Shown here one piece after another: positions 7,923 through 29,563 of a stretch of 62,504 bases of DNA. The stretch is from an uncultured Alphaproteobacteria bacterium (GTDB taxonomy: Bacteria; Pseudomonadota; Alphaproteobacteria; UBA7985; CAJQQZ01): contig CAJQQZ010000103.1 in NCBI GenBank assembly GCA_905480575.1, positions 1 through 62,504 on the forward strand, given 5' to 3'. A program made the translations under genes and the position numbers. The first letter of the stretch is position 1. Each line of letters starts with the position of its first letter. Under the pieces are notes generated by a model, which was given only the letters and a program-made list of their open reading frames with translations, was not told the DNA's origin and did no database searches.

Positions 7923-9374
7923 ATGACGTCGCGATCAGCAATCCGTTTTTGGTTTAGAGGGGAGCTGCAAGTCATTGAAGACTTTCAGCCCACAGAAACT
8001 GTTTTGGACTTTCTAAGGCTTCGGCAGTCCGCGTGTGGGACAAAAGAAGGCTGTGCAGAAGGGGATTGTGGGGCTTGTACCGTTGCTGTTGTTCGTCCAG
8101 TAGGGGAAGAGCTTCGTATTGAAGCGGTTAATGCTTGTATCCAGTTTCTAGGGACCTTGGACGGTTCCGTTCTCTTCACGGTCGAAGATTTGAAGATGGA
8201 AGGAGATGAATTACACCCTGTCCAGGCGGCGATGGTTAAGCACCACGGATCACAATGCGGGTTTTGTACGCCTGGTATCGTGATGTCACTCTTTGCCCAA
8301 ACGCATCAAAACCGTCCGGCCGACCGGGCGGAACTAGAGGATTGTCTGGCCGGAAATCTGTGCCGCTGTACGGGGTATAAGCCTATTCTTGACGCTGGCA
8401 TTGATGCCACTGCTGTCGCGACTGATACAGCTGAAATTTACCGCGAAACGATCTCAGAGATCCATGATGAAGGGGAATTACTTGCTGGTGATGAGGGTAG
8501 ATTCTTCGCAGCACCGACGTGCAAAAGCTCCTTGCTGAAATTAGTTGCAGAGCATCCTGACGCGACCCTCTTCTCCGGAGCAACCGATGTAGGCCTTTGG
8601 CATACCAAGCTTTTCCGGAAGCTGCCCAAGCTGATTTATTTGGGCAGAGTAAAGGAACTTCTTGCAATCGATGAAAGTGCGCACGAGCTGAGATTAGGAG
8701 GCGCAGTCTCTTATGAGCGAGCGAGAGGCGCTTTCGGCGCGCTCGACAGCGACATTGAAGAACTAATAAGGCGCTTGGGTTCAACCCAAGTCAGAAATGC
8801 TGGCACCATAGGTGGCAATATTGCGAACGGTTCGCCCATTGGAGACACTCCACCCATTCTCATAGCCCTTGGTGCCAGCATCACATTGGAATCAATTCGC
8901 GGTGCTCGCACGTTGCCTTTGGAGGATTTCTTCATTGAATACGGGAAGCAGGACAGGGCCGCTGATGAAGTCCTAACCGAAATCATTGTTCCGAAGTTAA
9001 GTCACTCACAGCGGTTTAGATGCTTCAAATTGGCAAAGCGTTACGATCAAGACATTTCATCTGTAATGACAGGGTTCTGTTTTACGATAGAAGAAGGAAA
9101 AATCGTTGAATCCAAACTGGCCTTTGGTGGAATGGCGGGCACACCTAAAAGAGCCACCAATACAGAGGCAGCCCTTAGAGGTAAGACTCTAGAGGAGGCT
9201 TGCTCTTTGGTAGAAAATTTATCTTCAGACTTTGTGCCAATGGATGATCACCGCGCGTCGGCGGATTATCGAATGATATCCGCGCAAAATTTGCTTAAGA
9301 AAGCTCTGATCGAACTTTCAGAAGAAGAGAAGGTTGCGACTAGGTTGAAGCCAAGGGAGGCGATCCATGCCTGA
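7923..9374 (+). CDS. xdhA: xanthine dehydrogenase small subunit (Fe-S/FAD), 483 aa
   Basis: Electron-transfer subunit of the molybdenum xanthine dehydrogenase that turns hypoxanthine and xanthine into urate. The plant-type [2Fe-2S] domain carries CGTKEGCAEGDCGAC near residues 38-52. The second [2Fe-2S] domain shows CGFCTPGIVMS near 110 and CRCTGYKPI near 145. The FAD domain follows from about 200 with FSGATDVGL and GNIANGSPIGDTPP. It starts immediately after uraH and overlaps xdhB by eight bases, so the three are translated from one message. The length agrees with the XdhA of two-subunit bacterial enzymes. Confidence 0.95.
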   Translation: MTSRSAIRFWFRGELQVIEDFQPTETVLDFLRLRQSACGTKEGCAEGDCGACTVAVVRPVGEELRIEAVNACIQFLGTLDGSVLFTVEDLKMEGDELHPVQAAMVKHHGSQCGFCTPGIVMSLFAQTHQNRPADRAELEDCLAGNLCRCTGYKPILDAGIDATAVATDTAEIYRETISEIHDEGELLAGDEGRFFAAPTCKSSLLKLVAEHPDATLFSGATDVGLWHTKLFRKLPKLIYLGRVKELLAIDESAHELRLGGAVSYERARGAFGALDSDIEELIRRLGSTQVRNAGTIGGNIANGSPIGDTPPILIALGASITLESIRGARTLPLEDFFIEYGKQDRAADEVLTEIIVPKLSHSQRFRCFKLAKRYDQDISSVMTGFCFTIEEGKIVESKLAFGGMAGTPKRATNTEAALRGKTLEEACSLVENLSSDFVPMDDHRASADYRMISAQNLLKKALIELSEEEKVATRLKPREAIHA

Positions 9375-11667
9375 TACTCAGTTGAGAGAGGTACGCCAGC
9401 CTAAAGCCCATGATTCGGCGATAAAGCAGATCACCGGCGAGGCGCGCTACATCGATGATCAACGCGAACCCGCTGGCCTTCTTCATTGCTATCCTGGGAA
9501 AGCATCGATTGCTTCTGGCAAAGTGGTGGCGATGGATCTATCAGCTGTAGCCGCTGCCCCCGGTGTTGTGTCGCTCATCAAAGTCGCCGATATTCCAGGA
9601 AAAAATGACTGTAGCCCGATTTTTGGTGATGACCCGATCATTTCCGAAGGACAGATCACGTTCCATGGTCAGGTGATTTTCGCGGTTCTTGCAGAGACGA
9701 GAGATCAGGCACGTTGGGCCGCTCAACTGGCCAAAGTTGAATATGAGGAGGAAAAGGCCTTTATCTCGGTTGAACAAGCCAATAGCAATGATTCCACTGT
9801 GTTACCCGATTACCAAATGGGTCGAGGGGATGTTGTTGTCGACTTAGCCAAAGCCTCAAATCGTTTGCAAGGTCACTTGGAAATTGGAGGCCAAGATCAC
9901 TTCTATCTCGAAGGCCACGTTTCCATGGTTGAACCTGGTGAAGATGGCGACATGCTTGTCCATTGCTCAACCCAGCACCCAACTGAGGCCCAGCATCAGG
10001 TTGCCGATTGCTTGGGTGTTCCTCATCACGCGGTAGAGGTTCGGATTAGAAGGATGGGTGGCGGTTTCGGTGGTAAGGAATCCCAATCGGGGCAGTGGGC
10101 TTGTTTGGCTGCAATTGGCGCCAAGATGACAGGGCATCCTGTTAAAATTCGCCTCGACCGTGACGATGACATGATCCTGACTGGGAAGCGACATGAATTC
10201 GAGGCTTCTTACGATGTAGGCTTTGATAATCAAGGAAGAATTGAGGCGATTGATCTGACGTTGCTCGGGCGCTGCGGACATTCAGCGGACTTATCTGGTG
10301 CTATCTGCGACCGTGCAATGATGCACTCCGACAATGCCTATTTCCTTCCTTCCGTCGCAATTCATTCGAGACGCCTTAGGACACACACTGTCTCCAATAC
10401 GGCCTTCAGAGGATTTGGAGGACCACAAGGTGTACTCTCAATCGAACGCGTCATGGATCACATCGCAAGCTCTTTGGGGATTGATGCGTTGGAGGTCCGC
10501 AAGGTTAATCTCTATGGAGATGAGGGCCGGAACACAACGCCCTACGAGATGGAAGTCTTCGATAACATCGCGCCAGAGCTCATCGAACAACTTGAAGCAA
10601 GCTCGAATTATCAAAACCGCCGAGCGGAAGTCGTCGAATTCAATCGTAAAAACAAATACCTAAAGAAGGGCTTGTCCCTAACTCCTGTCAAATTCGGTAT
10701 CTCCTTTACGGCAACTCACATGAATCAAGCGGGCGCTTTGGTTCATGTCTATGGTGATGGTTCTATCGGTCTCAATCATGGCGGTACAGAAATGGGCCAA
10801 GGACTTTATGTCAAAGTTGCCCAGGTCGTGGCTGATTCCTTCGGTATTGATCTGGAAAGAGTGAAAATCACATCCACGACGACAGCGAAGGTGCCCAACA
10901 CATCTCCAACAGCAGCGTCATCGGGTGCAGACCTAAACGGTATGGCCGCAAAAATAGCTGCTGACGAAATAAGAGGCAGATTAGCTGAATTTGCTGCCGG
11001 ACTATTCCAGGCCAGCAAAGATGATGTTCGCTTTGAAAACAACGAAGTTGTTGTTGGAACTGAACGATTGGATTTCACAGACTTGGTGAAAAAAGCGATC
11101 TTTGCCCGTGTGTCTCTATCGTCTACTGGCTACTACAAAACACCAGAAATTCAATGGGATGTAGCGACGGGGACTGGTAAACCTTTCTTCTACTTTGCTT
11201 ACGGAGCTGCGGTTTCGGAAGTCACTATTGATTGCTTTACTGGCGAGTACAAAGTTGATCGCGTTGATATTCTCCACGATGTAGGCCATTCCCTTAATCC
11301 CGCGATAGACAAGGGCCAGATAGAGGGCGGCTTTATCCAAGGTATGGGCTGGCTCACGACAGAAGAACTCAAGTGGGATGACAAAGGCAGACTGCGCACC
11401 CATGCGCCCTCGACCTACAAGATTCCTACAGCTACTGACACGCCAGATGTGTTCAATGTTGACCTCTTCAAAGGGGATGGCAATAGAGCCGAGACGATCT
11501 ATCGTTCTAAGGCCGTTGGCGAGCCACCGTTGATGTTGGGGATCGCAGTCTTCTCTGCTTTGACCAATGCCGTCGTCAATGCCACTGGGCGGATGCCGAA
11601 GTTGAATGCTCCTGCAACACCAGAAGCTGTTTTGTTGGCGTTGAGAGACGGTGACTATCTTGTCTAG
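9367..11667 (+). CDS. xdhB: xanthine dehydrogenase molybdopterin subunit, 766 aa
   Basis: Catalytic subunit that binds the molybdenum cofactor and oxidises the purine ring. Visible motifs are GGGFGGKESQ near residue 230, FRGFGGPQG near 345, TEMGQGLYVKVAQV near 478, and GEPPLMLG near 718, which holds the catalytic glutamate. The length is normal for bacterial XdhB. It overlaps xdhA upstream and xdhC downstream by 17 bases. Cofactor supply is plausible from moaC and moeA in this same window. Its uraH, puuD and guaD neighbours favour xanthine over other substrates of this large family. Confidence 0.95.
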   Translation: MPDTQLREVRQPKAHDSAIKQITGEARYIDDQREPAGLLHCYPGKASIASGKVVAMDLSAVAAAPGVVSLIKVADIPGKNDCSPIFGDDPIISEGQITFHGQVIFAVLAETRDQARWAAQLAKVEYEEEKAFISVEQANSNDSTVLPDYQMGRGDVVVDLAKASNRLQGHLEIGGQDHFYLEGHVSMVEPGEDGDMLVHCSTQHPTEAQHQVADCLGVPHHAVEVRIRRMGGGFGGKESQSGQWACLAAIGAKMTGHPVKIRLDRDDDMILTGKRHEFEASYDVGFDNQGRIEAIDLTLLGRCGHSADLSGAICDRAMMHSDNAYFLPSVAIHSRRLRTHTVSNTAFRGFGGPQGVLSIERVMDHIASSLGIDALEVRKVNLYGDEGRNTTPYEMEVFDNIAPELIEQLEASSNYQNRRAEVVEFNRKNKYLKKGLSLTPVKFGISFTATHMNQAGALVHVYGDGSIGLNHGGTEMGQGLYVKVAQVVADSFGIDLERVKITSTTTAKVPNTSPTAASSGADLNGMAAKIAADEIRGRLAEFAAGLFQASKDDVRFENNEVVVGTERLDFTDLVKKAIFARVSLSSTGYYKTPEIQWDVATGTGKPFFYFAYGAAVSEVTIDCFTGEYKVDRVDILHDVGHSLNPAIDKGQIEGGFIQGMGWLTTEELKWDDKGRLRTHAPSTYKIPTATDTPDVFNVDLFKGDGNRAETIYRSKAVGEPPLMLGIAVFSALTNAVVNATGRMPKLNAPATPEAVLLALRDGDYLV

Positions 11668-12631
11668 GCTACTCGAGCATTTGACGGGTGCATTGCGCAA
11701 AGGGCAATCCGCAACACTCGTTACTGTTGTCATGGCCCAGGGTTCAGGGCCTCGCAATCCCGGCGCACATATGCTTGTGTTGTTGGACGGCTCCATCGCT
11801 GGCACGGTCGGCGGTGGGGAATTGGAATGGCAAGCCATTGAAGAGGCCAAGTCATCTCAAGAGGCTGTTTGGCGAAAAGAGTTTGTCTTGGGCCCTGACT
11901 TGGGGCAATGCTGTGGTGGGAGAATGACGCTCCAGTTTGAACGCTGTACACCGGAGCAACTGCCGGCTTGGCAGGCCATGTTGCAAAATCCAGAAGCCTT
12001 TTATTGGTCGGTTTTCGACCCGGATCAGAGTGTGGTTCTCCGTCGGAGTCCTTCGCAAGCAATGTTAGACTCTTTGAAAGAAGAGCTCAGTCTTTTTCAT
12101 ACAATCGACACCCATTCATATCTGGAAAGGTTTGCTGAAAAGCGCTTGCCTTTGTTCCTTTTTGGTGCAGGGCATGTTGGGAAAGCTTTATCAATGGCGC
12201 TGGCAAGCCTTCCGATCAAGGTTACGTGGCTCGATAGTCGCGTAGAGGTTTTCCCATCAGTTGTGCCGAGATCTATCACGACTAGGACCTTTTCAAAGGC
12301 TTCAGCTGAATTGGAATCGTTGCCGCAAAAATCTGTTGTTCTCGTTATGACGCATGATCACAGTCTCGATTTGGATATCTGCAGCTCTGCTCTGGAGTGT
12401 GAGGCTTGCTCTTTCGTTGGCCTGATCGGCAGCGGAACGAAAAAGGCGCGATTTATCAAAAGGTTAACTGACGTTGGGATTTCAAATGATCGCCTTAAAC
12501 GGTTTCATTGTCCCATTGGTATCGAGGGGATTACCAGCAAAGAGCCGGCCGCCATCGCGGCTTCCGTCGCTGCTCAACTTTTACAACTAAGAGAAGTCTT
12601 GTTTGGCAATTCCGCCATTAAGACCGTTTAA
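11651..12631 (+). CDS. xdhC: XdhC molybdenum-cofactor insertion factor, 326 aa
   Basis: Chaperone that binds sulfurated molybdenum cofactor and delivers it to XdhB. The N-terminal XdhC/CoxI domain shows VMAQGSGPRNPGAHML and GTVGGGELEWQAIEEA. The C-terminal Rossmann-type domain shows LFLFGAGHVGKALSMAL near residues 168-184. The GTG start lies inside the end of xdhB, so translation is probably coupled. Members of this family are not part of the mature enzyme. Confidence 0.93.
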   Translation: MTILSRLLEHLTGALRKGQSATLVTVVMAQGSGPRNPGAHMLVLLDGSIAGTVGGGELEWQAIEEAKSSQEAVWRKEFVLGPDLGQCCGGRMTLQFERCTPEQLPAWQAMLQNPEAFYWSVFDPDQSVVLRRSPSQAMLDSLKEELSLFHTIDTHSYLERFAEKRLPLFLFGAGHVGKALSMALASLPIKVTWLDSRVEVFPSVVPRSITTRTFSKASAELESLPQKSVVLVMTHDHSLDLDICSSALECEACSFVGLIGSGTKKARFIKRLTDVGISNDRLKRFHCPIGIEGITSKEPAAIAASVAAQLLQLREVLFGNSAIKTV

Positions 12632-12645
12632 ATGGACTAAACTGA

Positions 12646-13116
12646 ATGTGTAACAAAGATTTTATGCAAAAGGCCGTCAAACTGTCTCGCGATCACATGG
12701 AGGCCAATGACGGCGGTCCATTTGGGGCAATCGTCGTTAAAGACGGCGAGGTAGTTGCAGAAGGTTACAACCGAGTGACCTCAACAAATGATCCAACAGC
12801 CCACGCAGAAGTTGTCGCCATCAGGGACGCCTGCGCGAACCTGAACACCTTTAGCCTCAAAGGGTGTGAACTTTACACTTCTTGCGAGCCCTGTCCCATG
12901 TGCCTTTCCGCGGCTTACTGGTCCGGTGTGGATGTAATCTATTTCTCAAATACTAGGAAAGACGCAGCGGAAATAGGGTTCAGCGATGACTTTCTTTACG
13001 AGCAGGTGAGCCTGCCTCTAGAAGAAAGATCGTTGCCGATTAAGCGGATTGAATTGGCAGAAGCCAATAAGGTGTTCCAAGACTGGATGGTCAAGGAAGA
13101 CAAAGTTCTCTATTAG
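12646..13116 (+). CDS. guaD: guanine deaminase (CDA-fold), 156 aa
   Basis: Zinc enzyme converting guanine to xanthine, feeding the dehydrogenase encoded just upstream. Zinc ligands and the catalytic glutamate are visible as HAE at 53-55 and CEPCPMC ending at Cys86. The sequence from GGPFGAIVVKDGEVVAEG onward follows the 156-aa Bacillus GuaD closely, including the domain-swapped C-terminus. No good ribosome-binding site precedes the ATG at 12646; ATG at 12664 is a possible alternative. A tRNA or cytosine deaminase is less likely because of the context and the C-terminal tail. Confidence 0.9.
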   Translation: MCNKDFMQKAVKLSRDHMEANDGGPFGAIVVKDGEVVAEGYNRVTSTNDPTAHAEVVAIRDACANLNTFSLKGCELYTSCEPCPMCLSAAYWSGVDVIYFSNTRKDAAEIGFSDDFLYEQVSLPLEERSLPIKRIELAEANKVFQDWMVKEDKVLY

Positions 13117-13198: not shown

Positions 13199-14731
13199 GT
13201 GACCGCTTTGCTTGAAGTTAAATCGATATCGAAAGCCTTTGGTGACTTTTATGCCAACTCTGATATCTCCATGAAGATCATGCCCGGGGAAATTCACGCT
13301 TTATTGGGTGAAAACGGTGCTGGTAAATCGACTCTTGTTAAGATGATGTACGGCGTGCTGCGTCCAACAGCTGGTGAATTCCACTGGAACGGCCAACCAA
13401 TCGTTATGACGGGGCCCGCGTTTGCAAGAGAACTCGGTATTGGAATGGTATTCCAGCACTTCTCATTGTTTGAAGCTCTCACAGTCGGAGAGAATGTTGC
13501 CCTGTCGCTTCCCAAAGATTTGGCGATGAGCGATGTTAATCAAAAGGTGAGGGAAGTCTCAGAAAACTACGGCCTTCCACTTGACCCTGACCGTGCTGTT
13601 CATTCTCTCTCGGTTGGGGAGCGCCAACGTATTGAGATCGTGCGTTGCTTGCTGCAAGATCCCAAATTGTTGATCATGGATGAACCAACGTCGGTTCTGA
13701 CACCCCAGGAAGCTGACCGTTTGTTTGAAACACTAGAGCAGTTGTCTTCAGAAGGTTGCTCAATTCTATATATTTCACATAAGCTTGATGAAGTTAGACG
13801 GCTTTGCAACACAGCGACTATCCTGCGGCACGGCGAGTTAGTAGCCTCCTGCGATCCGTCAAAAGAAACGCCGCGCAGCTTGGCAGAGATGATGGTGGGG
13901 ACCAAAATTTCCTCTGTCAGCAAAGCAGATGAAGTGACCGGCGATGAGAAAGTCAGATTTAGCACAAGCAATTTGACTGTCCCAGCAGAGGATCCCCTTG
14001 GTACTGACTTGAAAGCCATCAACATGAGTGTGCGGTCCGGCGAGATATTGGGCATCGCGGGAGTTGCCGGTAATGGGCAAGATGAATTGTTCAATGCTTT
14101 GAGCGGTGAGGTGTTAGCCAATGGTTCTGATGCGGTGGTTATCGACGGCGTTGCTGTTGGTAAACAAGGCATCAACCAACGTAGAAAATTAAGTGCAGCC
14201 TTTATCCCAGAAGAACGAAACGGGCATGCTGCTGTCGGCGACCTTAGCCTCAGCCGCAATGCTTTGCTGAGCACGCATGCGACTTCGCCAAATCAACGCA
14301 GAGGTTTGATCGATGATGGGGCCTTGCGTGGCTACGTTGACGAGGTCGTGAAGCACTTTGATGTTCGCGCCTCGAAAGATAATGCTAACGCAGCCTCTCT
14401 GTCTGGTGGCAACCTACAGAAGTTCGCCGTTGGTCGAGAGATGCTGCGCGAGCCAGGTGTTCTGATTGTTAGTCAACCAACCTGGGGCGTTGATGCGGGG
14501 GCGGCTGCGGTTATCCGCCAGGCTCTGCTTGATCTCGCAAGTCGCGGAGCAGCGATTGTTATGATTTCTCAGGATCTGGAGGAGATTTTTGAAGTCAGCG
14601 ACTCAATTGCAGTCATCAGCGAGGGGACGTTGTCAGAAGCCCGACCAGCGAAAGATATAACGGTGGAAGAAGTCGGCCTGTTAATGGGTGGAATTACAGG
14701 CGAAGGAGGTGATCATGTTCATGCGGCTTGA
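13199..14731 (+). CDS. purine/nucleoside ABC transporter ATPase, 510 aa
   Basis: Fused tandem ATPase of the BMP-type nucleoside importer family. In the first half Walker A is GENGAGKSTL near residue 38, the signature is LSVGERQRIEI near 138 and Walker B is LLIMDEPTSVL. The second half has GVAGNGQDELF in place of a clean Walker A, but a good signature LSGGNLQKFAVGRE near 400; such degeneracy is normal here. The start is GTG behind a strong GGGAGGGAG. The gene overlaps the first permease. Its place after guaD suggests purine bases or nucleosides as substrates. Confidence 0.92.
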   Translation: MTALLEVKSISKAFGDFYANSDISMKIMPGEIHALLGENGAGKSTLVKMMYGVLRPTAGEFHWNGQPIVMTGPAFARELGIGMVFQHFSLFEALTVGENVALSLPKDLAMSDVNQKVREVSENYGLPLDPDRAVHSLSVGERQRIEIVRCLLQDPKLLIMDEPTSVLTPQEADRLFETLEQLSSEGCSILYISHKLDEVRRLCNTATILRHGELVASCDPSKETPRSLAEMMVGTKISSVSKADEVTGDEKVRFSTSNLTVPAEDPLGTDLKAINMSVRSGEILGIAGVAGNGQDELFNALSGEVLANGSDAVVIDGVAVGKQGINQRRKLSAAFIPEERNGHAAVGDLSLSRNALLSTHATSPNQRRGLIDDGALRGYVDEVVKHFDVRASKDNANAASLSGGNLQKFAVGREMLREPGVLIVSQPTWGVDAGAAAVIRQALLDLASRGAAIVMISQDLEEIFEVSDSIAVISEGTLSEARPAKDITVEEVGLLMGGITGEGGDHVHAA

Positions 14732-15794
14732 AGCGAGGTCTGAACCCTCACCAATCATGACTTACCTGTCGCCCGTCATTGCGGTTTCAGTGACGGTGAT
14801 AATTGTCGGCTTTATATTCGTTGGCATGGGAATAGATCCCTTCGTCGGATTGAAAACTTATTTCATTACGCCTTTGGCCAAGCTGTCATCAATCTACGAA
14901 CTTTTGGCAAAAGCTTCGCCTCTCGTGTTGATTGCAGTTGGTCTCATCTTTTGCTTTAGAGCGAATATCTGGAACATCGGTGCAGAGGGACAATATACAC
15001 TCGGCGCCATATTTGGCGGTTGGGTTGCCGTCAGCTTTCACGAAAGCGAAAGTATGCTGCTGTTACCGGCGGTGCTTTTGGCTGGTGTTGTCGGAGGTAT
15101 GCTTTGGGCAGCTATTCCCGCTTTGTTGAAAATCTATTTCAAAGCCAATGAAATCCTGACATCTCTCATGTTAACTCCCGTAGCCGTGTTGTTGCTCGAC
15201 TATCTAGTGCGAGGTCCTTTGAGAGATCCAGACGGTTATAACATGCCGGAAAGCCGCTTCTTTCCTGACGCTGCAATTCTACCAACCTTGTTCAATAGCT
15301 ATTCTTTCCATATCGGAATCTTCGTATCATTGCTTGTCGCTATTCTGGCGACGGTTCTATTATATAAAGCAATGCTAGGGTACAAAGTTGACGTAAGTGG
15401 TAGCGCTCCAAGAGCTGCTAGGTTCGGCGGATTCTCGTCAATACGCATGACCATTATCGTCTTTTTGATTAGTGGCGCTTGTGCTGGTTTGGCTGGCACG
15501 ATGGAGGTCTCAGCGCGGACCGGCCAACTCATCCCAACCATACCCTTGGGTTATGGATTCACCGCGATCATCGTAGCCTTCTTAGGGAGGCGAAATCCGA
15601 TCGGTGCTGTGTTTGCGGGGCTCCTGCTGGCATTGTCGTATATGGGAGGGGAGGAAGTTCAAGTGAAGTTACAAGTACCCTCTGACCTCACCGGTGTTCT
15701 GCAAGGATTGCTCTTGTTCCTCTTGTTGGGGTGCGACACCCTCATAAATCATCGATTTGTATTCTCACGTAAGGAGATCGCACATGAGTCTTGA
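14715..15794 (+). CDS. purine/nucleoside ABC transporter permease 1, 359 aa
   Basis: Multi-helix inner-membrane permease of the branched-chain/nucleoside type. Recognisable segments are FRANIWNIGAEGQYTLGAIF near residue 87 and the loop GCACAGL-like SGACAGLAGTMEV. ATG 14715 is preferred over an in-frame GTG at 14688 because AAGGAGGTGATC, an almost complete anti-16S match, ends right before it. The frame overlaps the ATPase end by 17 bases and the next permease by 11. It should form a heterodimer with that second permease. Confidence 0.92.
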   Translation: MFMRLEARSEPSPIMTYLSPVIAVSVTVIIVGFIFVGMGIDPFVGLKTYFITPLAKLSSIYELLAKASPLVLIAVGLIFCFRANIWNIGAEGQYTLGAIFGGWVAVSFHESESMLLLPAVLLAGVVGGMLWAAIPALLKIYFKANEILTSLMLTPVAVLLLDYLVRGPLRDPDGYNMPESRFFPDAAILPTLFNSYSFHIGIFVSLLVAILATVLLYKAMLGYKVDVSGSAPRAARFGGFSSIRMTIIVFLISGACAGLAGTMEVSARTGQLIPTIPLGYGFTAIIVAFLGRRNPIGAVFAGLLLALSYMGGEEVQVKLQVPSDLTGVLQGLLLFLLLGCDTLINHRFVFSRKEIAHES

Positions 15795-16719
15795 TATGGT
15801 TGATCTCCTCACCAACGCCATGTTGGGTATCATTGTTGCGGCAACGCCATACATGCTGGCCGCTACCGGAGAGCTCGTGGTCGAACGGTCCGGCGTTCTG
15901 AACCTCGGTGTTGAGGGCATGATGATTGTCGGTGCTGTCACGTCTTATATCGTTGCCTTTTCGACCGGTAGTTTGGTTTTGGGTGTGTTGGTAGGCATTC
16001 TCGCAGGGGCTTTCTTATCACTTTGTTTCGCCTTTTGGACGCAGACTTTGTTGACCAATCAGGTGGCGACAGGATTGGCTGTAACGTTAGCCGGGATAGG
16101 AATAGCTGGTCTAGCAGGCCGAAATTTCGTCGGCACAACGATTTCGCCAATCCCACAATTGTACATCCCATACTTGAGCGATATTCCTCTCATCGGTAAA
16201 GTCCTCTTTGGACTTGACCCAATTGCTTACTTTTCTTTCATCCTGATTTTCTTAGTGATTTGGTTTCTGTGGAAAACAAGGGCGGGGCTCATATTGAGAG
16301 CTGTTGGGGATAGTCATGATTCTGCGCATGCCCTCGGTTATCCCGTCGTAAAAATTCGCTACATGGCAATCCTTTTTGGCGGCGCATGCGCTGGCTTGGC
16401 TGGAACATATCTGACACTCGTCCACACTGCTTTCTGGGCACCGGGTATGACGGCTCAACGAGGATGGACTGCCTTGGCTCTGGTTGTTTTCGCTTCTTGG
16501 TTGCCATGGCGGGTGGTCTTAGGGGCCTATTTGTTTGGAACAGTGGGTTACATGCAGTTGTTCTCTCAAGGCATGGGCGTTCCGATCCCTTCACAGTTCT
16601 TGTCTTCGCTGCCATACCTAATGACCATCGTTGTGTTGGTACTCATTTCGCGGGATCAATTCCGCGCGAAGGCCAACACGCCTGCCAGTTTGGGCAAAGT
16701 GTTCAAACCTGATTTGTAG
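15784..16719 (+). CDS. purine/nucleoside ABC transporter permease 2, 311 aa
   Basis: Second membrane subunit, with the family motif ERSGVLNLGVEGMMIVGAV near residue 37 and a later GGACAGLAGTYLTL. ATG 15784 follows AAGGAG by seven bases; a TTG codon 27 bases further upstream is in frame but lacks such a site. The start overlaps the end of permease 1, which supports a single translated block. The matching solute-binding protein is not adjacent but is encoded at 21670. Confidence 0.92.
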   Translation: MSLDMVDLLTNAMLGIIVAATPYMLAATGELVVERSGVLNLGVEGMMIVGAVTSYIVAFSTGSLVLGVLVGILAGAFLSLCFAFWTQTLLTNQVATGLAVTLAGIGIAGLAGRNFVGTTISPIPQLYIPYLSDIPLIGKVLFGLDPIAYFSFILIFLVIWFLWKTRAGLILRAVGDSHDSAHALGYPVVKIRYMAILFGGACAGLAGTYLTLVHTAFWAPGMTAQRGWTALALVVFASWLPWRVVLGAYLFGTVGYMQLFSQGMGVPIPSQFLSSLPYLMTIVVLVLISRDQFRAKANTPASLGKVFKPDL

Positions 16720-16729
16720 GATTGACCAC

Positions 16730-16754
16730 GGGGCGGCCTGTGATAGGCTGCCCC
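16730..16754 (+). repeat. strong hairpin abutting the next start codon
   Basis: GGGGCGGCCT (16730-16739) pairs with AGGCTGCCCC (16745-16754) around the loop GTGAT, giving ten pairs with one G-T wobble. It ends one base before the ATG at 16756 and takes up the place of a ribosome-binding site. There is no T-run. It may separate expression of the transporter from that of the next three genes. Confidence 0.6.
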
Positions 16755-16755
16755 A

Positions 16756-17718
16756 ATGGTTAAGAAGATCAAAGACTTCATTCCTGATCCGGAACAGATG
16801 GCGCTTTGGCCGGACGTTTCCGGCAACGCTATCAACGGCCTCGGCGAAGAGGCATTCCGACGGCCTGGCTATGTCTATTGGACTGACCCGGCAACAATTC
16901 CACATGGTTCCGTCCAACAATGGTTCTATTCGAAGAACACAGCGCCGGAATTGATCGCAACGCGCGAGGAGCGTGCTGTTGAACAGGCCGTCGCGCTTTC
17001 CGATCTTGCTGAAACACCTCGACAACAATCTGCAGAAGAATGGACAGCCGCGGTTAAAGCGAAGGCTCTACAGCTCGGAGCAGAAGCTGTCGGTGTCGCG
17101 AAGATAAAACAGGAGTGGATCTACGAAGGGCGGACAGTCGAGTTCACGCACGTTGTTATCCTTGCCATTCAAATGGCCTATGAGGAAATGACCGCTGCGC
17201 CCGAACCCACCGCTGGCGCTGAGGTTGTCCGTCAATACACACGTGGCATGAAGACTTCTAAACGATTGGCCTCTTGGTTGCGGGAGCAGGGCTTAGACGC
17301 TAAGCCAGAACATGGTCCGCTAGCAGGAGACATCACGCTTGTCCCGGCGGCTCTTCAAGCCGGAATGGGGGAGCTGGGCAAACATGGCTCAATCATCAAC
17401 CGAGAACTGGGGGCTTGTTTTCGGCTCGCTGCGGTTCTCACGTCTGTACCGTTGATTGAAGACCAACCGGATGATTTCGGTGCTGAAGACTTTTGCGCCT
17501 CATGTCGTGTCTGCTCCAACCACTGTCCACCAGATGCTATTCTGCCGGAAAAACAAACCGTGCGTGGGCAGGAAAAGTGGTACGTCGATTTCGATAAATG
17601 CCTTCCGTTCTTCAACGAAACCGCGGGCTGTGGGATTTGTGTCACCGTATGTCCTTTTTCACGCCCCGGAGTGGGGGCAAACCTTATTGCTAAGTTAGCT
17701 AAAAGGGCAAAAAATTGA
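16756..17718 (+). CDS. reductive-dehalogenase-like / QueG-like Fe-S protein, 320 aa
   Basis: A cytosolic protein resembling the corrinoid and iron-sulfur core of the reductive dehalogenase / epoxyqueuosine reductase superfamily. The core segment LQAGMGELGKHGSIINRELG near residue 200 precedes two [4Fe-4S] motifs: CASCRVCSNHCP near 250 and, after DKCLPFFNETAGC, CGICVTVCPF near 293. There is no Tat signal, so it is not a respiratory membrane-linked dehalogenase. Whether it binds cobalamin is inferred from the fold only. A hairpin sits directly before the ATG. Its end overlaps the next gene by four bases. The substrate is unknown. Confidence 0.75.
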   Translation: MVKKIKDFIPDPEQMALWPDVSGNAINGLGEEAFRRPGYVYWTDPATIPHGSVQQWFYSKNTAPELIATREERAVEQAVALSDLAETPRQQSAEEWTAAVKAKALQLGAEAVGVAKIKQEWIYEGRTVEFTHVVILAIQMAYEEMTAAPEPTAGAEVVRQYTRGMKTSKRLASWLREQGLDAKPEHGPLAGDITLVPAALQAGMGELGKHGSIINRELGACFRLAAVLTSVPLIEDQPDDFGAEDFCASCRVCSNHCPPDAILPEKQTVRGQEKWYVDFDKCLPFFNETAGCGICVTVCPFSRPGVGANLIAKLAKRAKN

Positions 17719-18833
17719 GTCCGCCTCCTTTCCCTCTCTACGATTGGGTGAAAGCCTATTGTGACTTCGGCTGGCACAGAACGGGGACGATGGTTGAGGA
17801 GAATACATTGGTTTGGCTCGGAGACCTCATCACCCAGCTAGGGGGACAGGTCGAGCATCATTCTTACGAATTTCCTTACTATGAGGCCACTGTTGAGACC
17901 GCTATTGAAGCTTCAGGCATTCACCTCGAAGCGCTCTATTATTCGCATATCGGGGAGGGGACAGCGTCGTCTTACCTTGTTGAACGACTGGGCTTTGACG
18001 AACAACACGGCGAGGCTGCTATCGCGCAAGCCATTTCTAAGTTTACGAAGAAGGCAAAGCAACTTGATGCTGATGCGTTAGTACTGGCAACCGGGAATGA
18101 TCATTCCAGTTTAGTGGCAGTCAATCAAGCGCCTACTGACCCTGGTGAGTTTCCTATCTTTCTTGCCGCTGGGAGGGATTTCCAAATGCTGCGAAATGAG
18201 CAGCCACAGATCACATTTTCGGCCTCAGTTAAGGATAAGGGCTCTAGAAACCTGATAGCTTGTTTCGGTGATTTCTCAACTGGAAAACCGCCTTTAATGA
18301 TCACGACGCCGGTCTCGGGTTGGTTCTCTTGTGCCGGTGAACGAGGAACAGGCCTAGCAATCGCTCTTTCTGTCGCGTCAAGAGTTGGGGAAAATCATCC
18401 GGCTATGCTGCTTTGTCCCACGGGGCATGAATTAGGATACTTTGGAGCGGAACGGTTCGCGGAGAATTTCGATTTACCATTGAAAGCAATTCTGCATATC
18501 GGTTCCTGTGTAGCGATCAAGGAAGATCCCAGTGCATTGTTGACAGCACGGTCAAACGCCACATCAGGCATTTTCCAGAACGTAGCTGAAATCACCGACA
18601 AAGCCGGTGTGCAATTGGAGCGACCTGCCGAGCCCTTAAACCGTTACTTTTGGTACGGAGAAGCAGAGTGTTGGGCTTCATCAGGCATTCCTATGGTGTC
18701 CATCGCTGGAGCCTCACATACATTCCACACGATTGACGATCTGCCGGAACAAGCAACCGATCAATCCATCTTGTTGCAAAAGGAAGCCATGTTTTTATCC
18801 ATAGCCAGAGAATTGTTGGAGAACAATCTATGA
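17715..18833 (+). CDS. M28 peptidase-like protein with altered metal site, 372 aa
   Basis: The fold resembles zinc aminopeptidases of family M28: an N-terminal cap (GWHRTGTMVEENTLVWLGDL) and a core from about residue 190. In place of the usual GAHxDS metal motif it reads TPVSGWFSCAGERGTGLAI, and HIGSCVA replaces the usual aspartate loop. GHELGYFGAERFAE and ASHTFHTIDD keep a glutamate and a histidine. A normal two-zinc site is therefore unlikely. The TTG start overlaps the previous stop (TTGA), and the end overlaps the next gene by four bases. It is probably a hydrolase or binding protein in a shared pathway. Confidence 0.6.
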   Translation: MSPPPFPLYDWVKAYCDFGWHRTGTMVEENTLVWLGDLITQLGGQVEHHSYEFPYYEATVETAIEASGIHLEALYYSHIGEGTASSYLVERLGFDEQHGEAAIAQAISKFTKKAKQLDADALVLATGNDHSSLVAVNQAPTDPGEFPIFLAAGRDFQMLRNEQPQITFSASVKDKGSRNLIACFGDFSTGKPPLMITTPVSGWFSCAGERGTGLAIALSVASRVGENHPAMLLCPTGHELGYFGAERFAENFDLPLKAILHIGSCVAIKEDPSALLTARSNATSGIFQNVAEITDKAGVQLERPAEPLNRYFWYGEAECWASSGIPMVSIAGASHTFHTIDDLPEQATDQSILLQKEAMFLSIARELLENNL

Positions 18834-20089
18834 CAGTCTTAATTGCTGGTGGAGGAATAGCTGGATTATCGCTTGCGCTAACCTGTCACCAAATCGGTGT
18901 GCCCTGCAAAGTTATAGAAGCCGCTCGCGAGGTGAAGCCCCTGGGCGTTGGTATCAATCTACAGCCCAACGCTGTGCGTGAGTTAATGGAGCTCGGTCTT
19001 GGTCCTCAATTGGGTCAAATCGGTATCTGCACTAAAGCCTTCGCGCTCTATTCAAAAATGGGCCGCCTCATTTGGGAAGAACCGCGTGGTGAAGCCGCCG
19101 GCTACAACTGGCCGCAATACTCTTTGCATCGCGGTAAACTGCAAATGTTACTCTTTGAAACTGCACTAGAACGACTTGGCGAAAGAGCCATCCTTACGGG
19201 CGCAAATGTCGTTGGATACGCAAATGAGCCCTGTCGTGTCACTGCGAAAATTGAGCATCGTGACGGCCAGATTGAAGAGCTGAGCGGTTCGGTGCTGATT
19301 GGTGCGGATGGTGTGCATTCAAACGTCAGAGCGCAGATGTACCCCGATGAAGGTGATGCTTTATGGTCGGGAAACATCCTATGGAGAGCAACGACCCGTG
19401 CTAAGCCGTTTGGCAATGGGGCGACCATGGCAATGGCTGGCCATGCGACCCACAAGTTTGTGACATATCCAATTTCTGAAATCGACCCAGTCACTGGACT
19501 AGCAGACATCAACTGGATCGCTGAACTTTCAAGGGATAAAGCTGAAGGATTTAGGCGTGAAGACTATTCGAGGGAGGCAGCGTTAGAAGAGTTCCTGCCG
19601 GAATTTGAAGGGTGGCAATTCGATTGGTTGAATGTTCCAAAGATCATTCGTGGAGCCGAACGTGTTTATGAATATCCGATGGTCGACCGCGATCCTTTGC
19701 CAACTTGGCGGGATGGTCGTGTCAGTTTGATGGGGGACGCGGCTCATGTCATGTATCCAACAGGCTCAAACGGTGCCAGCCAAGCGATCATTGACGCCCG
19801 CAAACTTGGGCGAGTATTCAAGGATCGCGGACTGAATGAGAAAGCGCTTTACGCTTACGAAGATGAGATGAGGCCACTGACAGAAAGAACGATTCTCGCC
19901 AATCGAGGCCAAGGGCCGGGTTACATTATGGAGATCGTTGAACAGAAATGCGGTGGAAATTTTGAGAAGATTGAGGATGTCCTGAGCCAGGAAGAAATGG
20001 CCGCGTTTGCTTCGAAGTATAAAGCAACGGCGGGTTTCCCTGTCGATAATTTAAATGCCTCGCCACCGATAATCCCAATTTGTACTTAA
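18830..20089 (+). CDS. FAD-dependent aromatic-ring monooxygenase, 419 aa
   Basis: Class A flavoprotein monooxygenase. The dinucleotide-binding motif is at the very N-terminus (IAGGGIAGLSLAL, residues 5-17), the middle motif VLIGADGVHSNVR is near 155 and the second FAD motif GDAAHVMYPTGSNGASQAI is near 302. It resembles PhzS-like and salicylate-type enzymes more than the shorter urate hydroxylase HpxO. Since PuuD is encoded nearby, urate is not the obvious substrate. It overlaps the M28-like gene by four bases and forms one unit with the Fe-S protein. The products of purine-like or N-heterocyclic imports are plausible substrates. Confidence 0.85.
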   Translation: MTVLIAGGGIAGLSLALTCHQIGVPCKVIEAAREVKPLGVGINLQPNAVRELMELGLGPQLGQIGICTKAFALYSKMGRLIWEEPRGEAAGYNWPQYSLHRGKLQMLLFETALERLGERAILTGANVVGYANEPCRVTAKIEHRDGQIEELSGSVLIGADGVHSNVRAQMYPDEGDALWSGNILWRATTRAKPFGNGATMAMAGHATHKFVTYPISEIDPVTGLADINWIAELSRDKAEGFRREDYSREAALEEFLPEFEGWQFDWLNVPKIIRGAERVYEYPMVDRDPLPTWRDGRVSLMGDAAHVMYPTGSNGASQAIIDARKLGRVFKDRGLNEKALYAYEDEMRPLTERTILANRGQGPGYIMEIVEQKCGGNFEKIEDVLSQEEMAAFASKYKATAGFPVDNLNASPPIIPICT

Positions 20090-20529: not shown

Positions 20530-21489
20530 TTAGGAATGATCGCGTGAAAGTATCGAAGTCAAACAACCGACATTGCCTGCAGCTTTAGAGAGTTCGTCGA
20601 TCTCGGTTGTTTGGATGTCGATGTCAAAACTAGCAAAGAAGTCCTCAAATTGAGGCAACCCTGCAGCGAGTAAGATTTTTCTGGGCCCAAGAGTTACGAA
20701 GTTCATCGCTTTGTACGACGCAGGCTCATCCGCGAGCGGTGGGAATTCAATCTGATAGCCTCGATCTTTCAACGCATTCACGACAGAGACTGGCGTTCGA
20801 CGTGGCCAGCAAAAAGCGAGATCTTTGTCGGCAATCCTCAACATGCCCATAAAATGCATTGTGCCATAGGGTAGGTCGGCCGCGATAACGTCACGTCCGA
20901 TTTCATTCAACGTGGTAGTGATCTGGTCAATCGCGGCTTGGTTGGTCCTATGACCTCGACCAATAATAGCGGTTGATTTGTCCAGCCACATAAGATCAGC
21001 GCCTTCAAAGACCGCCGATCCTGTTAAAGTACGCAGTATAGGAATGCCTAAATCAACAACCCGTCGCGCGACCCATCGTTCTTCACCTGACCGAACTTGT
21101 CCCGCCGGGCGTGCCAAAATAGCGCCTTCTGGCGTCATAGCCAAAAGGTCGGCGCAAAACATGAGGTTTGGATAATTGTGTTGATCGGGTTCAACAAAAT
21201 GAACAACTACATCATTTAACCGGTAGATTTCAGCAATCGTATCATGTTGTTGCTGAGCAAGTTCTAGATCAAGCTTTTCAAGCATCAGTGCTGCTTCGGG
21301 GTCATTTTGAGCACTGATCAGTTCGGGACCGGGGCGATGCAACAAGACTGCTTTTAGGTCAGACCACTCATTTGAGACACGATAGGGAGCCCAGATTGAA
21401 CCAATCTCGTCACGATGCTCAAGTTGGCGTGGAACCCATCCGTCACCGCCGTAAGCTGATTTTCCAAAAGTTGACTTCGAATTGCTCAT
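20530..21489 (-). CDS. amidinotransferase / dimethylargininase-family protein, 319 aa
   Basis: A member of the guanidino-group-modifying superfamily (arginine deiminase, dimethylarginine dimethylaminohydrolase, amidinotransferases). The pattern VLLHRPGPEL opens the fold. FEGADLMWLD near residue 158 holds the guanidinium-binding acids, GTMHFMGMLRI near 212 the catalytic His, and NVGCLTSILSRD at the C-terminus the nucleophilic Cys. It probably releases ornithine or citrulline from a guanidino compound. Its gene runs opposite to the purine genes and diverges from the solute-binding protein gene, sharing a 180-bp intergenic region. Confidence 0.75.
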   Translation of the reverse strand: MSNSKSTFGKSAYGGDGWVPRQLEHRDEIGSIWAPYRVSNEWSDLKAVLLHRPGPELISAQNDPEAALMLEKLDLELAQQQHDTIAEIYRLNDVVVHFVEPDQHNYPNLMFCADLLAMTPEGAILARPAGQVRSGEERWVARRVVDLGIPILRTLTGSAVFEGADLMWLDKSTAIIGRGHRTNQAAIDQITTTLNEIGRDVIAADLPYGTMHFMGMLRIADKDLAFCWPRRTPVSVVNALKDRGYQIEFPPLADEPASYKAMNFVTLGPRKILLAAGLPQFEDFFASFDIDIQTTEIDELSKAAGNVGCLTSILSRDHS

Positions 21490-21669: not shown

Positions 21670-22740
21670 ATGAAAAAGATCCTTATTGGCATGGCCGCTG
21701 CTGCGGCGATGACGCTGACAGCATTTAGTTCATTTGCTGACGACAAACTAAAAGTTGGCTTTATCTACATTGGGCCTCCGGGCGACCATGGTTGGACTTA
21801 CCAGCACGACCAGGGTCGTATTGCTGTTGAAGAAGCCTTGGGTGACCAGGTTGAAACAACATTCGTTGAAAATGTGCCAGAAGGCCCAGACGCAGAGCGT
21901 GTTATTCGCCGCCTTGCAGAAGACGGCCATGGCCTGATCTTCACAACTTCTTTTGGTTACATGAACCCAACTTTGAAAGTTGCTAAGAAGTTCCCAGATG
22001 TTAAGTTTGAGCACGCAACTGGCTACAAGCAAGCTGACAACGTTTCTACTTACTCAGGGCGTTTCTATGAAGGCCGTTATGTGATTGGTAAGATGGCTGG
22101 CCATCTGTCTAAGACAGGTGTCGTTGGTTATGTAGCTTCATTCCCAATTCCTGAAGTTGTTCGTGGCATTAACTCCTTTATCCTCGGCATGCAGACTGTT
22201 AACCCTGACGCTCAAATCAAAGTTGTTTGGGTGAACTCATGGTTTGATCCAGGTAAAGAAGCAGACGCTGCTAAAGCTTTGATCGACCAAGGTGCGGACA
22301 TCATCACACAACACACTGACTCTCCTGCACCAATGCAGGTTGCAGAACAGCGTGGCATCATGGCGTTTGGCCAAGCTTCTGACATGATTCACTTCGGTCC
22401 AAAAGCACAGGCTACGTCAATCATTGATGATTGGGCTCCTTACTACATTGCTCGTACACAAGCAGTATTGGATGGTACTTGGGAATCACAGGATACTTTT
22501 GGTGGTCTAGCTGAAGGTATGGTTCTAATGGCGCCTTACACTAACGTTTCTGACGAAGTGGCTGCTCTTGGTGCTGAAACTGCTGATGCGATTGCTAGCG
22601 GTGCTATGCATCCGTTCCAGGGTCCAATTTACAACCAGGCAGGTGAGCTCAAGGTTGCTGAAGGCGAAATTCTTCCAATCGGTGATTTGCTCGGCATGAA
22701 CTGGTATGTTCAGGGTGTTGACGATCAATTGCCTGAGTAA
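21670..22740 (+). CDS. BMP-family ABC transporter solute-binding protein, 356 aa
   Basis: Periplasmic binding protein of the Med/BMP nucleoside family. The signal peptide (about residues 1-23, ending SSFA) is followed by KVGFIYIGPPGDHGWTYQHD, the typical ligand-site start, and later GFGQASDM-like FGQASDMIHFG. It is the natural partner of the ATPase and permeases encoded at 13199-16719, although five other genes lie between. A GGGAG site, its own upstream region and a strong terminator directly behind it suggest separate, high expression, as is usual for binding proteins. Confidence 0.92.
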   Translation: MKKILIGMAAAAAMTLTAFSSFADDKLKVGFIYIGPPGDHGWTYQHDQGRIAVEEALGDQVETTFVENVPEGPDAERVIRRLAEDGHGLIFTTSFGYMNPTLKVAKKFPDVKFEHATGYKQADNVSTYSGRFYEGRYVIGKMAGHLSKTGVVGYVASFPIPEVVRGINSFILGMQTVNPDAQIKVVWVNSWFDPGKEADAAKALIDQGADIITQHTDSPAPMQVAEQRGIMAFGQASDMIHFGPKAQATSIIDDWAPYYIARTQAVLDGTWESQDTFGGLAEGMVLMAPYTNVSDEVAALGAETADAIASGAMHPFQGPIYNQAGELKVAEGEILPIGDLLGMNWYVQGVDDQLPE

Positions 22741-25849: not shown

Positions 25850-26729
25850 ACTTCTGGACTAGGAAGTCGAAGAAAGCTCTCGTGCGTGGCGGCATGTAGA
25901 GCCTCTTAGGATAGAGAGCCGAGATTGCGTATGAAGTTGGCTTCACGTCGGGCAACACAATCTGCAATCTGCCCGCTTCAAGATCCTCTGCGACGTAGCG
26001 GAAATCCTGCATGGTGATGCCCTGATGATCTAATGCCCAGTTGTGCAGGACTTCCATCTGGTCCGCATCCATCGTTCCCGTAAGATTGAGTTTCTTGGAT
26101 CCGCTTTCTGTTTCTACCGTCCATTGATATTGCTTAGAGCCGGGAAAACGCAGCAACAGACAATTGTGATGATTGAGATCTTCTAGGGTTTCCGGTGTTC
26201 CGTGTGTCGCGAGGTAGACGGGTGAAGCGCAGATTACGCGCCTGTTTTCCGCTAGTTTTCGAGCTACGAGAGCTGAATCAGGCAAGTTGGCTATTCTGAT
26301 GGCCAGATCATATTGGTCATCAATCAAATTCATTAGCCGGTCGCTCAAATGCAACTGCACAGAGATGCCAGGGTGGTCTTTGTTGAATGCTGGTACCAAA
26401 GGCGCGATAAAGTCCCTTCCCAGTCGGATCGGTGCCGTCACTGTAATAGGGCCTGGTGTAGGAGTGTGATCTTCTGAAAGCTCCGCCTCAGCACGCTCCA
26501 CGACGTCCAGCAGCTCTTGGCAATGACTCAAAAATCGTTTGCCCTCGTCGGTAAGCTGTAACTTTCTGGTCGTGCGCCAGAACAGTGTGGTGCCTAGGTC
26601 TTTTTCAAGACGAGCAATGCGATGGCTGACGACCGCGACGGACATTCTAAGTTCGCGTCCAGCAGCGGACAGGGAACCACGCTCCGCAATGCGAAAAAAT
26701 ATCCTGACATCTTCCAAATTCTTGAGCAT
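25833..26729 (-). CDS. LysR-family transcriptional regulator, 298 aa
   Basis: The N-terminal winged helix-turn-helix (residues 1-65, including RGSLSAAGRELRMSVAVVSHR) is followed by a periplasmic-binding-like effector domain. ATG 26729 (MLKNLEDVRIFF) is chosen over an in-frame TTG three codons upstream. It diverges from puuD with 108 bp between them, which holds a T-N11-A palindrome. Control of puuD-uraD-puuE-allA is therefore likely; a purine intermediate would be the expected co-inducer. Confidence 0.88.
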   Translation of the reverse strand: MLKNLEDVRIFFRIAERGSLSAAGRELRMSVAVVSHRIARLEKDLGTTLFWRTTRKLQLTDEGKRFLSHCQELLDVVERAEAELSEDHTPTPGPITVTAPIRLGRDFIAPLVPAFNKDHPGISVQLHLSDRLMNLIDDQYDLAIRIANLPDSALVARKLAENRRVICASPVYLATHGTPETLEDLNHHNCLLLRFPGSKQYQWTVETESGSKKLNLTGTMDADQMEVLHNWALDHQGITMQDFRYVAEDLEAGRLQIVLPDVKPTSYAISALYPKRLYMPPRTRAFFDFLVQKFRVLG

Positions 26730-26754
26730 GATTTTCAAACCAAACTTAAAAGTA

Positions 26755-26773
26755 ATTTATACTCTATAGAAAT
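26755..26773. promoter_or_regulatory. candidate LysR binding site between lysR-type gene and puuD
   Basis: ATTT at 26755-26758, eleven bases, AAAT at 26770-26773. The arms ATTTATA and TAGAAAT match as an inverted repeat at six of seven positions. This is the T-N11-A pattern bound by LysR-type regulators, in the divergent promoter region. Confidence 0.45.
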
Positions 26774-26837
26774 ATTTAAAACTCGTACAGAGGCACAGAG
26801 GTTGGTACATTGGCCGACAATAAAACAGGGGTTCGTT

Positions 26838-28016
26838 ATGATTGGGTTTTTGGCCGACTGGGCAACGTTGCTGCTAAGATGGTTTCACATTACATTGGGG
26901 ATCGCCTGGATCGGGGCCTCATTTTTCTTCGTATGGCTTGATATCTCGCTGAAGAAACGGGCGCAGATGAACAAGGGTGTCGCCGGTACTTCGTGGATGG
27001 TCCACGGCGGTGGTTTTTATCATGTTGAGAAGTATCTCGTGGCTCCGGAGAGTCTGCCTGAAGATCTTCACTGGTTCAAATGGGAAGCCTACCTCACATG
27101 GATTTCTGGCTTTGCTCTCCTGATCTCTATCTATTACTTCAATGCCTCTGCCTATTTGATTGATCCCTCTGTTATGGCTCTTGAGCCTTGGCAAGCAATC
27201 GCGATTTCAATTGGATCGCTGTTGGCTGGTTGGTTGATTTATGACGGGCTGTGCCGTTCTCCCATTGGAAGAGAGCAGATCCTTTTGGTGCCAGCCGTGT
27301 TTGTTCTCATATGTGCCGCCGCATATCTATTTACGCTGGTGTTCGGAGGGCGCGGGGCTTTCATTCACGTCGGGGCCTTTGTTGGTACAATCATGGCGGC
27401 AAACGTCTTCGCAGTGATCATCCCTAACCAGGCAAAGATCACGAAGGCTTTGTTGGCGGGAGATCCTCCTGATCCAAAACTAGGCCAGATCGGCAAGCAA
27501 CGCTCGCTGCATAACAATTATCTGACGCTGCCCGTCTTGGTTATGATGGTCTCTAGTCACCACCCGATGCTCTTCAGCCATGAAAAATCATGGTTGATTG
27601 TCGCGCTGATCTTGGTTGTTGGCGCTATGGTCCGTCACTTTATCAATCGCCATGACGCCGGTGTGCCTGCGAAGAAGATCCTCTGGACACTCGGTGTAGC
27701 AGCGTTAGCCTTAATTGGTTTGATCCTAATGACGGCACCCAAGCCCGTTGATGATACCGTTGAAGTCATGCCAGACACCCAGGTTTTCGCGATGGTTAGT
27801 AAACATTGCACTGTCTGTCATTCAGGCAGTCCTCGGCACGATGATTACGACGAAGCGCCGAAAGGGATCAAATTCAACTCTCTCGTCGATGTTCGCACCC
27901 AAAAGAACGCCGTTTTACAGCAGTCGGTAAATTCCAACGCCATGCCCATGGGTAATGAAACCGGAATGACTGCCGAGGAGCGTGCGGCTCTCGGTGCTTG
28001 GTTGAGGGCGCAATAA
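26838..28016 (+). CDS. puuD: membrane urate oxidase PuuD with cytochrome c domain, 392 aa
   Basis: Urate hydroxylase that passes electrons to the respiratory chain, replacing the soluble uricase. The N-terminal multi-helix part carries the family's opening LRWFHITLGIAWIGASFFFV, then YHVEKYLVAPESLP near residue 62 and RHFINRHDAG near 268. The C-terminal monohaem cytochrome c domain has CTVCH at 324-328 and a methionine ligand probably in NAMPMGNETGMT. ATG 26838 is used because it starts the first helix and has AGGGG upstream. It overlaps uraD by one base (TAATG). Confidence 0.95.
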   Translation: MIGFLADWATLLLRWFHITLGIAWIGASFFFVWLDISLKKRAQMNKGVAGTSWMVHGGGFYHVEKYLVAPESLPEDLHWFKWEAYLTWISGFALLISIYYFNASAYLIDPSVMALEPWQAIAISIGSLLAGWLIYDGLCRSPIGREQILLVPAVFVLICAAAYLFTLVFGGRGAFIHVGAFVGTIMAANVFAVIIPNQAKITKALLAGDPPDPKLGQIGKQRSLHNNYLTLPVLVMMVSSHHPMLFSHEKSWLIVALILVVGAMVRHFINRHDAGVPAKKILWTLGVAALALIGLILMTAPKPVDDTVEVMPDTQVFAMVSKHCTVCHSGSPRHDDYDEAPKGIKFNSLVDVRTQKNAVLQQSVNSNAMPMGNETGMTAEERAALGAWLRAQ

Positions 28017-29444: not shown

Positions 29445-29563
29445 GGTCCGAACTTTATGTCCCCAACAAGTCATCCAGGGCTTGATCCGGGATCTTTTGA
29501 AACGAGCGCACAATTTCTAAAAGGTACTGGCCTTCGCTGGTATGACATGTCAGAGCTGGAGCA

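Follow-up and report, generated by a model that had tools for sequence, protein, structure and literature searches.

A coupled gene module for a short RdhA-class protein, an M28-fold protein with a remodelled metal site and a PhzS-like monooxygenase in an uncultured alphaproteobacterium

The DNA analysed here is a stretch of 62,504 nucleotides (the window) from an uncultured Alphaproteobacteria bacterium (assembly GCA_905480575.1, contig CAJQQZ010000103.1). Three genes at 16,756-20,089 form a coupled module that is conserved in two species. Family and fold could be assigned to each of the three products, namely a short soluble RdhA-class protein (RDH), an M28-fold hydrolase-like protein (M28L) and a class A flavoprotein monooxygenase (FMO); the catalytic residues are invariant among homologues, and the host carries cobalamin genes. 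We propose tentatively, and at slightly less than an even chance, that the triad is a genus-specific, coupled module of peripheral catabolism whose substrate is an aromatic or N-heteroaromatic compound with halogen or other substituents. The three genes are as follows.

RDH, 16756-17718, plus strand: ATG start, 320 amino acids (aa); short soluble RdhA-class corrinoid/2x[4Fe-4S] protein
M28L, 17715-18833, plus strand: TTG start, 372 aa; M28-fold hydrolase-like protein with a remodelled metal site
FMO, 18830-20089, plus strand: ATG start, 419 aa; class A flavoprotein monooxygenase of the PRK07538 family, PhzS-like

Coupling and conservation of the three genes

RDH and M28L overlap by 4 bp (TTGA at 17715-17718), and so do M28L and FMO (ATGA at 18830-18833); the three open reading frames, their coordinates and their overlaps are as an earlier note on this DNA had given them. 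The description in that note of one translational unit stands for RDH-M28L-FMO but does not extend to the ABC importer of the BMP type encoded upstream, where the permease stop (16719) is followed, after 36 bp that contain a strong conserved hairpin, by the RDH ATG (16756). The importer is context, outside the coupled triad.

The sole other genome of the genus in the set, that of a sister species (G001), shows the order perm1-perm2-RDH-M28L-FMO on a contig of 4474 bp with identical 4-bp overlaps, FMO being cut by the contig end. Protein identity between the window and this contig is 91% and 95% for the two permeases, 83% for RDH, 61% for M28L and 74% for FMO (first 133 codons), and synonymous sites are saturated (pS 0.74-0.83). 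Order, overlaps and proteins have been kept at this divergence; these are therefore conserved genes and not chance reading frames, and the arrangement, though seen in two species only, has been long maintained.

The short RdhA-class branch

RDH matches TIGR02486, the NCBI reductive dehalogenase model, at 8.9e-33 with 114.5 bits, under the curated cut-off of 160, and has no PF13486 match, so that neither model by itself places it in RdhA. Its best match in the PDB is NpRdhA (2.6e-32), and structure prediction for 16756-17718 gave an AlphaFold model (pLDDT 93.1) with the RdhA fold at Z 27-29. The individual Z scores are 28.9 for 8q4h, 28.4 for NpRdhA (4ras, 287 residues), 27.5 for PceA and 15.9 for QueG (Z by VIA; Foldseek was also used); the model aligns with RdhAs over residues 29-320, N-terminal region included, and with QueG over 92-306 only. 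Tyr161, Arg223 and eight cysteines (C247/250/253/257/282/292/295/299), corresponding to two [4Fe-4S] clusters, are invariant in 24 homologues. In the alignment to NpRdhA, Tyr161 falls on Tyr426, the proton donor of that enzyme, and Arg223 on Lys488, part of its catalytic dyad (PMC7565698). The host's own QueG (L005) is encoded separately and has His and Phe at the dyad positions. In the tree, a very long branch sets QueG off, and the short RDHs stand apart from the NpRdhA-like fusions and from the host's second RDase (L004); the short RDHs are likely monophyletic by this sequence-based tree, in which the branch that bounds them is weakly supported (55/67).

RDH is thus a member of the RdhA class and not a QueG on four counts, namely profile match, position in the tree, fold and residues of the active site. 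The notion of a QueG paralogue or tRNA-modification enzyme present by chance could appeal to a weak match to the QueG model TIGR00276 (52 bits, cut-off 200), but it is rejected by the same four lines of evidence and we give it next to no credence. The description in the earlier note, a cytosolic corrinoid/Fe-S reductase-type protein, is therefore borne out by the TIGR02486 and NpRdhA matches, the fold and the invariant Tyr, Arg and Cys residues, and the grouping with QueG that the note had named as one refutation of its joint route does not occur (dyad residues, tree, Z of 15.9).

The N-terminus of RDH (MVKKIKDFIPDPEQ) has no RR (twin-arginine, Tat) motif, and the protein should therefore be cytosolic; the next gene is M28L, so that both marks of a respiratory RdhA, the twin-arginine signal and rdhB, are absent. 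RDH also carries no reductase domain. It resembles the NpRdhA/BhbA type in its predicted cytosolic location, lack of a Tat signal, cobalamin fold, two [4Fe-4S] motifs and catalytic Tyr, but has ~320 aa instead of ~700, lacks the duplicated N-terminal half and the reductase fusion, has Arg where NpRdhA has Lys488 and belongs to a separate clade. With the PceA-type respiratory RDases it shares the core fold, including the N-terminal region, and the Tyr/Arg pair, whereas at 320 aa it has neither Tat signal nor membrane anchor. One host contig carries both cobN (1585 bits versus a cut-off of 822) and cbiC/cobH (222 bits versus 22.5), which makes cobalamin biosynthesis by the host likely.

The second RDase of the host, L004 (399 aa; 1123-2322 of locus L004, contig C84 of the same genome), served as a control and passes the cut-offs of both PF13486 and TIGR02486. 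It has exactly both Fe-S motifs (CDICTKCADACP and CAICMRVCP), offset by seven residues, of its ortholog Ros_A3X954, a bromophenol debrominase from Roseobacter (PMC13101508). Like RDH, these two are soluble single-domain RDases of the catabolic type, without a Tat signal and from marine Alphaproteobacteria; in contrast to L004, RDH and its 23 relatives stay under the cut-offs, and they lie outside its clade. A PF13486 search at E up to 1 gave no match for any of these 24 short members, and with TIGR02486 even the best of them (6.6e-37) has an implied score below the cut-off.

The short family, ~320-340 aa in length, is alphaproteobacterial: it is found in 18 of 289 alphaproteobacterial genomes (own genome included), with matches clearly stronger than the other RDH-like ones, and in 3/397 genomes phylum-wide, all three in Alphaproteobacteria. 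The 2.4-Mb genome G719 has 13 short RDH matches and includes two tandem arrays, each of five copies (L203, L205, L243). Near one of its arrays stand genes read from sequence as 2-oxopentenoate hydratase-type and 4-hydroxy-2-oxovalerate aldolase-type, a pair that may represent a meta-cleavage tail. Other contexts include folate/pterin genes (L226), acyl-CoA dehydrogenases and transporters, and at L231 and L233 a short RDH is divergent from genes read as preT/preA, of reductive pyrimidine degradation. Because its members score below the NCBI RDH cut-off and lack PF13486, the branch is hidden from annotation; it constitutes a soluble RdhA-class branch in Alphaproteobacteria unnamed by current Pfam and NCBI models, and the dehalogenation potential of these bacteria is probably undercounted. 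With ~320 aa, the short RDHs would offer the smallest RdhA-type catalysts for expression and assay.

The M28-fold protein and the monooxygenase

M28L matches no Pfam or NCBIfam model over its cut-off (Pfam M28 12.8 bits versus 21.3), and a sequence search of solved structures with it returned chance lipocalin matches only. Its predicted structure (pLDDT 93.0) has the M28 fold, with Z 31.4 and rmsd 3.6 over 349 residues against the zinc aminopeptidase BSAP and Z about 24 against the M28-fold glutaminyl cyclases. In common with these aminopeptidases and cyclases, M28L has the fold with an inserted PA-like domain and ligand-type Glu and His residues in HELG and FHTxxD; the metal site, however, is remodelled. 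The canonical M28 set (HxD, bridging D, EE, D, H) reads TP, E209, H238-E239, H261 and H338, as assigned by motif register with M28 and not by residue-level structural alignment. In 26/26 members of the M28L family the His of HxD is replaced by TP, the bridging Asp by Glu209, the catalytic Glu by His238 and the fourth ligand Asp by His261, while the ligands Glu239 and His338 are retained. E209, H238, E239, H261 and H338 are invariant in these 26 members, which come from Proteobacteria, Actinobacteria and Chloroflexi; such conservation argues for a site that is functional though altered, perhaps a one-metal site by analogy with the glutaminyl cyclases. The PDB title of 2anp terms a Glu-to-His aminopeptidase mutant functional. 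In the M28L family, an entire clade has an M28 metal site that was rebuilt in nature.

Relatives of M28L at L088, L092 and L094 are clustered with genes for an amino-acid ABC importer, an Asp/Glu-hydantoin racemase-like protein, a nitrilase and a hydantoinase. The hydantoin racemase, hydantoinase and nitrilase neighbours, as read at L092 and L094, would point to hydrolysis of an amide-type bond without fixing the substrate.

FMO belongs to the NCBIfam subfamily PRK07538 (NF005720, 574.6 bits, cut-off 400), together with PhzS, the 5-methylphenazine-1-carboxylate monooxygenase. PhzS is also its best match in the PDB (2rgj, 3.6e-87, 296 bits over residues 2-360); in contrast to PhzS, FMO has no phenazine genes nearby. 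An assignment as the urate hydroxylase HpxO was rejected (NF033623, 117.6 bits versus a cut-off of 500). FMO relatives occur in 35/289 genomes in varied contexts. At L173 and L175, from two same-order genomes of one genus, a PhzS-like FMO immediately follows the genes read as pseudouridine kinase (psuK) and pseudouridine-5'-phosphate glycosidase (psuG).

The matches to NF005720 and PhzS confirm the FAD ring monooxygenase, and the M28 fold with its family-wide changed metal site the altered M28-like protein, that had been seen in this DNA earlier.

Proposed function, rival explanations and surroundings

We propose the following route for the aromatic or N-heteroaromatic compound. RDH would hold base-off cobalamin in its core fold and, having no reductase domain of its own, would receive electrons via the two [4Fe-4S] clusters from a separate ferredoxin or flavodoxin. 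Tyr161, beside Arg223, would donate the proton as the ring loses a leaving group, most likely a halide, in a two-electron step. FMO would use NAD(P)H and O2 to hydroxylate this ring, either as it is or after dehalogenation, and M28L, with its reduced metal site, would hydrolyse an amide-type bond of a conjugate or of the ring-opened product. A single shared substrate, its halogenation, the order of the steps and the link to the importer are what we infer. This proposal is favoured by the placing of RDH with RdhA and not QueG, a Tyr placed as the proton donor of NpRdhA and PceA with Arg at the position of Lys488, the cobalamin genes and second RDase of the host, the G719 array near meta-cleavage genes, an RDH-FMO pair in another genome (G262, see below) and the order and overlaps that the sister species retains at saturated silent sites. 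Several points weigh against it: the substrate is a putative one, cobalamin binding by RDH is a prediction from the fold, and no assay of any short RDH was found in the literature searched. Short RDHs are, in addition, mostly solitary with diverse neighbours, M28L keeps other company elsewhere, e.g. the hydantoinase/racemase/nitrilase clusters, and only two species, both of the same genus, are known to have the triad.

A scan for M28L over the contigs of 84,980 species gave 70 loci; at these and at the RDH loci below, flanks were examined over 3-20 kb, several contigs being short. RDH and FMO stand beside M28L at 1/70 of these loci, that of the sister species; neither is nearby at any of the other 69. 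Among ~50 RDH loci elsewhere, M28L is present in none and FMO in one. The sole RDH-FMO pair outside the genus is on contig C49 of G262 (L184 1-1649), where a short RDH is convergent with a PhzS-like FMO, ~12 bases apart. Conserved co-occurrence of the three families, whose rarity elsewhere the earlier note had named as a refutation of its joint route, is thus not seen outside the genus among the 69 other M28L and ~50 RDH loci, and the triad is a genus-level assembly, not a conserved pathway.

It is unlikely, although well worth weighing, that the three genes have unrelated functions and share their place behind the importer only for the sake of expression. Such a chance neighbourhood would fit the finding that each family occurs elsewhere alone and in varied company, but not the retention of both 4-bp overlaps in two species at saturated synonymous divergence, nor the modest excess of genomes having both RDH and FMO (5/17 versus an expectation of 2.0; p 0.037 by Fisher's test, without correction for kinship).

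We are more doubtful that the triad, next to xdhABC, extends purine catabolism to a modified purine or N-heterocycle taken up through the adjacent importer. The genes from xdhA to FMO form one same-strand run, importer and module are syntenic in both species, the nearest PDB relative of FMO hydroxylates a phenazine, and the FMO relatives behind psuK and psuG would also suit a route of this kind. However, a purine-importer or xdh context outside the genus was found at none of ~50 RDH, 70 M28L and 20 FMO loci, the conserved hairpin lies between permease and module, and the ordinary urate route at 26622-30076 (PuuD with a cytochrome tail, OHCU decarboxylase, PuuE-like and AllA-like) is complete without the triad. 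No purine-degradation gene accompanies these families at the loci elsewhere, and a link of the substrate to purines would be a guess from position. The joint purine-type route suggested in the earlier note is therefore weakened by the co-occurrence result, and keeps some footing in the preservation of the set in two well-diverged species. A still longer shot is a three-enzyme breakdown of a halogenated compound, purine-like or another N-heteroaromatic, that enters through the BMP system. The enzymes would be a minimal RdhA hitherto missed by annotation, a flavin monooxygenase and an M28-fold hydrolase with His as base, and a structured RNA at the RDH start would control how the module is expressed.

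The features surrounding the triad are as follows.

xdhABC and a guanine deaminase-like gene, 7923-13116, plus strand: upstream of the importer, from open reading frames and overlaps
BMP/PnrA-type ABC importer, 13199-16719, plus strand: ATPase 13199-14731, permeases 14688-15794 and 15757-16719, from reading of the frames
Hairpin, 16730-16754, plus strand: 11-bp stem, 3-nt loop; candidate cis-regulatory element
PnrA-like (Bmp) substrate-binding protein, 21670-22740, plus strand: PF02608, 2.3e-52

The hairpin (25 nt, GGGGCGGCCTG-TGA-TAGGCTGCCCC) ends one base before the RDH ATG, and the sister species has one in the same place (GGCTGAGCCTG-TGG-TAGGCTCAGCC), again one base before the ATG. All 11 of 11 pairs are kept in the sister, with three double compensatory changes and one change of G-U to A-U, and the folding z is -3.95 in the window and -3.72 in the sister. 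Only 1166 of 2,000,000 simulated random placements of the seven stem changes keep all pairs; a shuffle control gave 59/500 on two sequences, a number at which it has little power. The spacer is identical to that of the sister at 31/42 bases, against a background of saturated silent sites. A weak promoter-like TTGAC-N16-TGATAGGCT (16722-16749) overlaps the hairpin, and TTGAC-N16-TGRTAGGCT is also conserved; hairpin and promoter-like sequence together occupy 16722-16754 in the window and 1969-2001 of L007 in the sister. No Shine-Dalgarno sequence is visible before RDH, and the hairpin has no Rfam match. An intrinsic terminator was rejected for want of a T tract after the hairpin, and a repeated palindromic element because a pattern search found the core once per genome at 0 mismatches. 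Two candidate readings are put forward, an RNA structure that would gate translation of RDH, or a palindrome over a promoter from which a leaderless message would begin at the RDH ATG; under either one the module would be uncoupled from the importer, which speaks against one simple transcript for both.

The triad is the end of a same-strand run that starts at xdhA/xdhB/xdhC, assigned by reading of the sequences, and continues with the guanine deaminase-like gene (PF00383, 1.5e-27) and the BMP-type importer. Subunits of a "putative B6 ABC transporter" are the best NCBIfam models for the latter, but every importer subunit falls below cut-off and a vitamin B6 importer was therefore rejected. Between the triad and the gene of the PnrA-like binding protein, 20530-21489 on the minus strand encodes a dimethylargininase-like protein that scores under all curated cut-offs.

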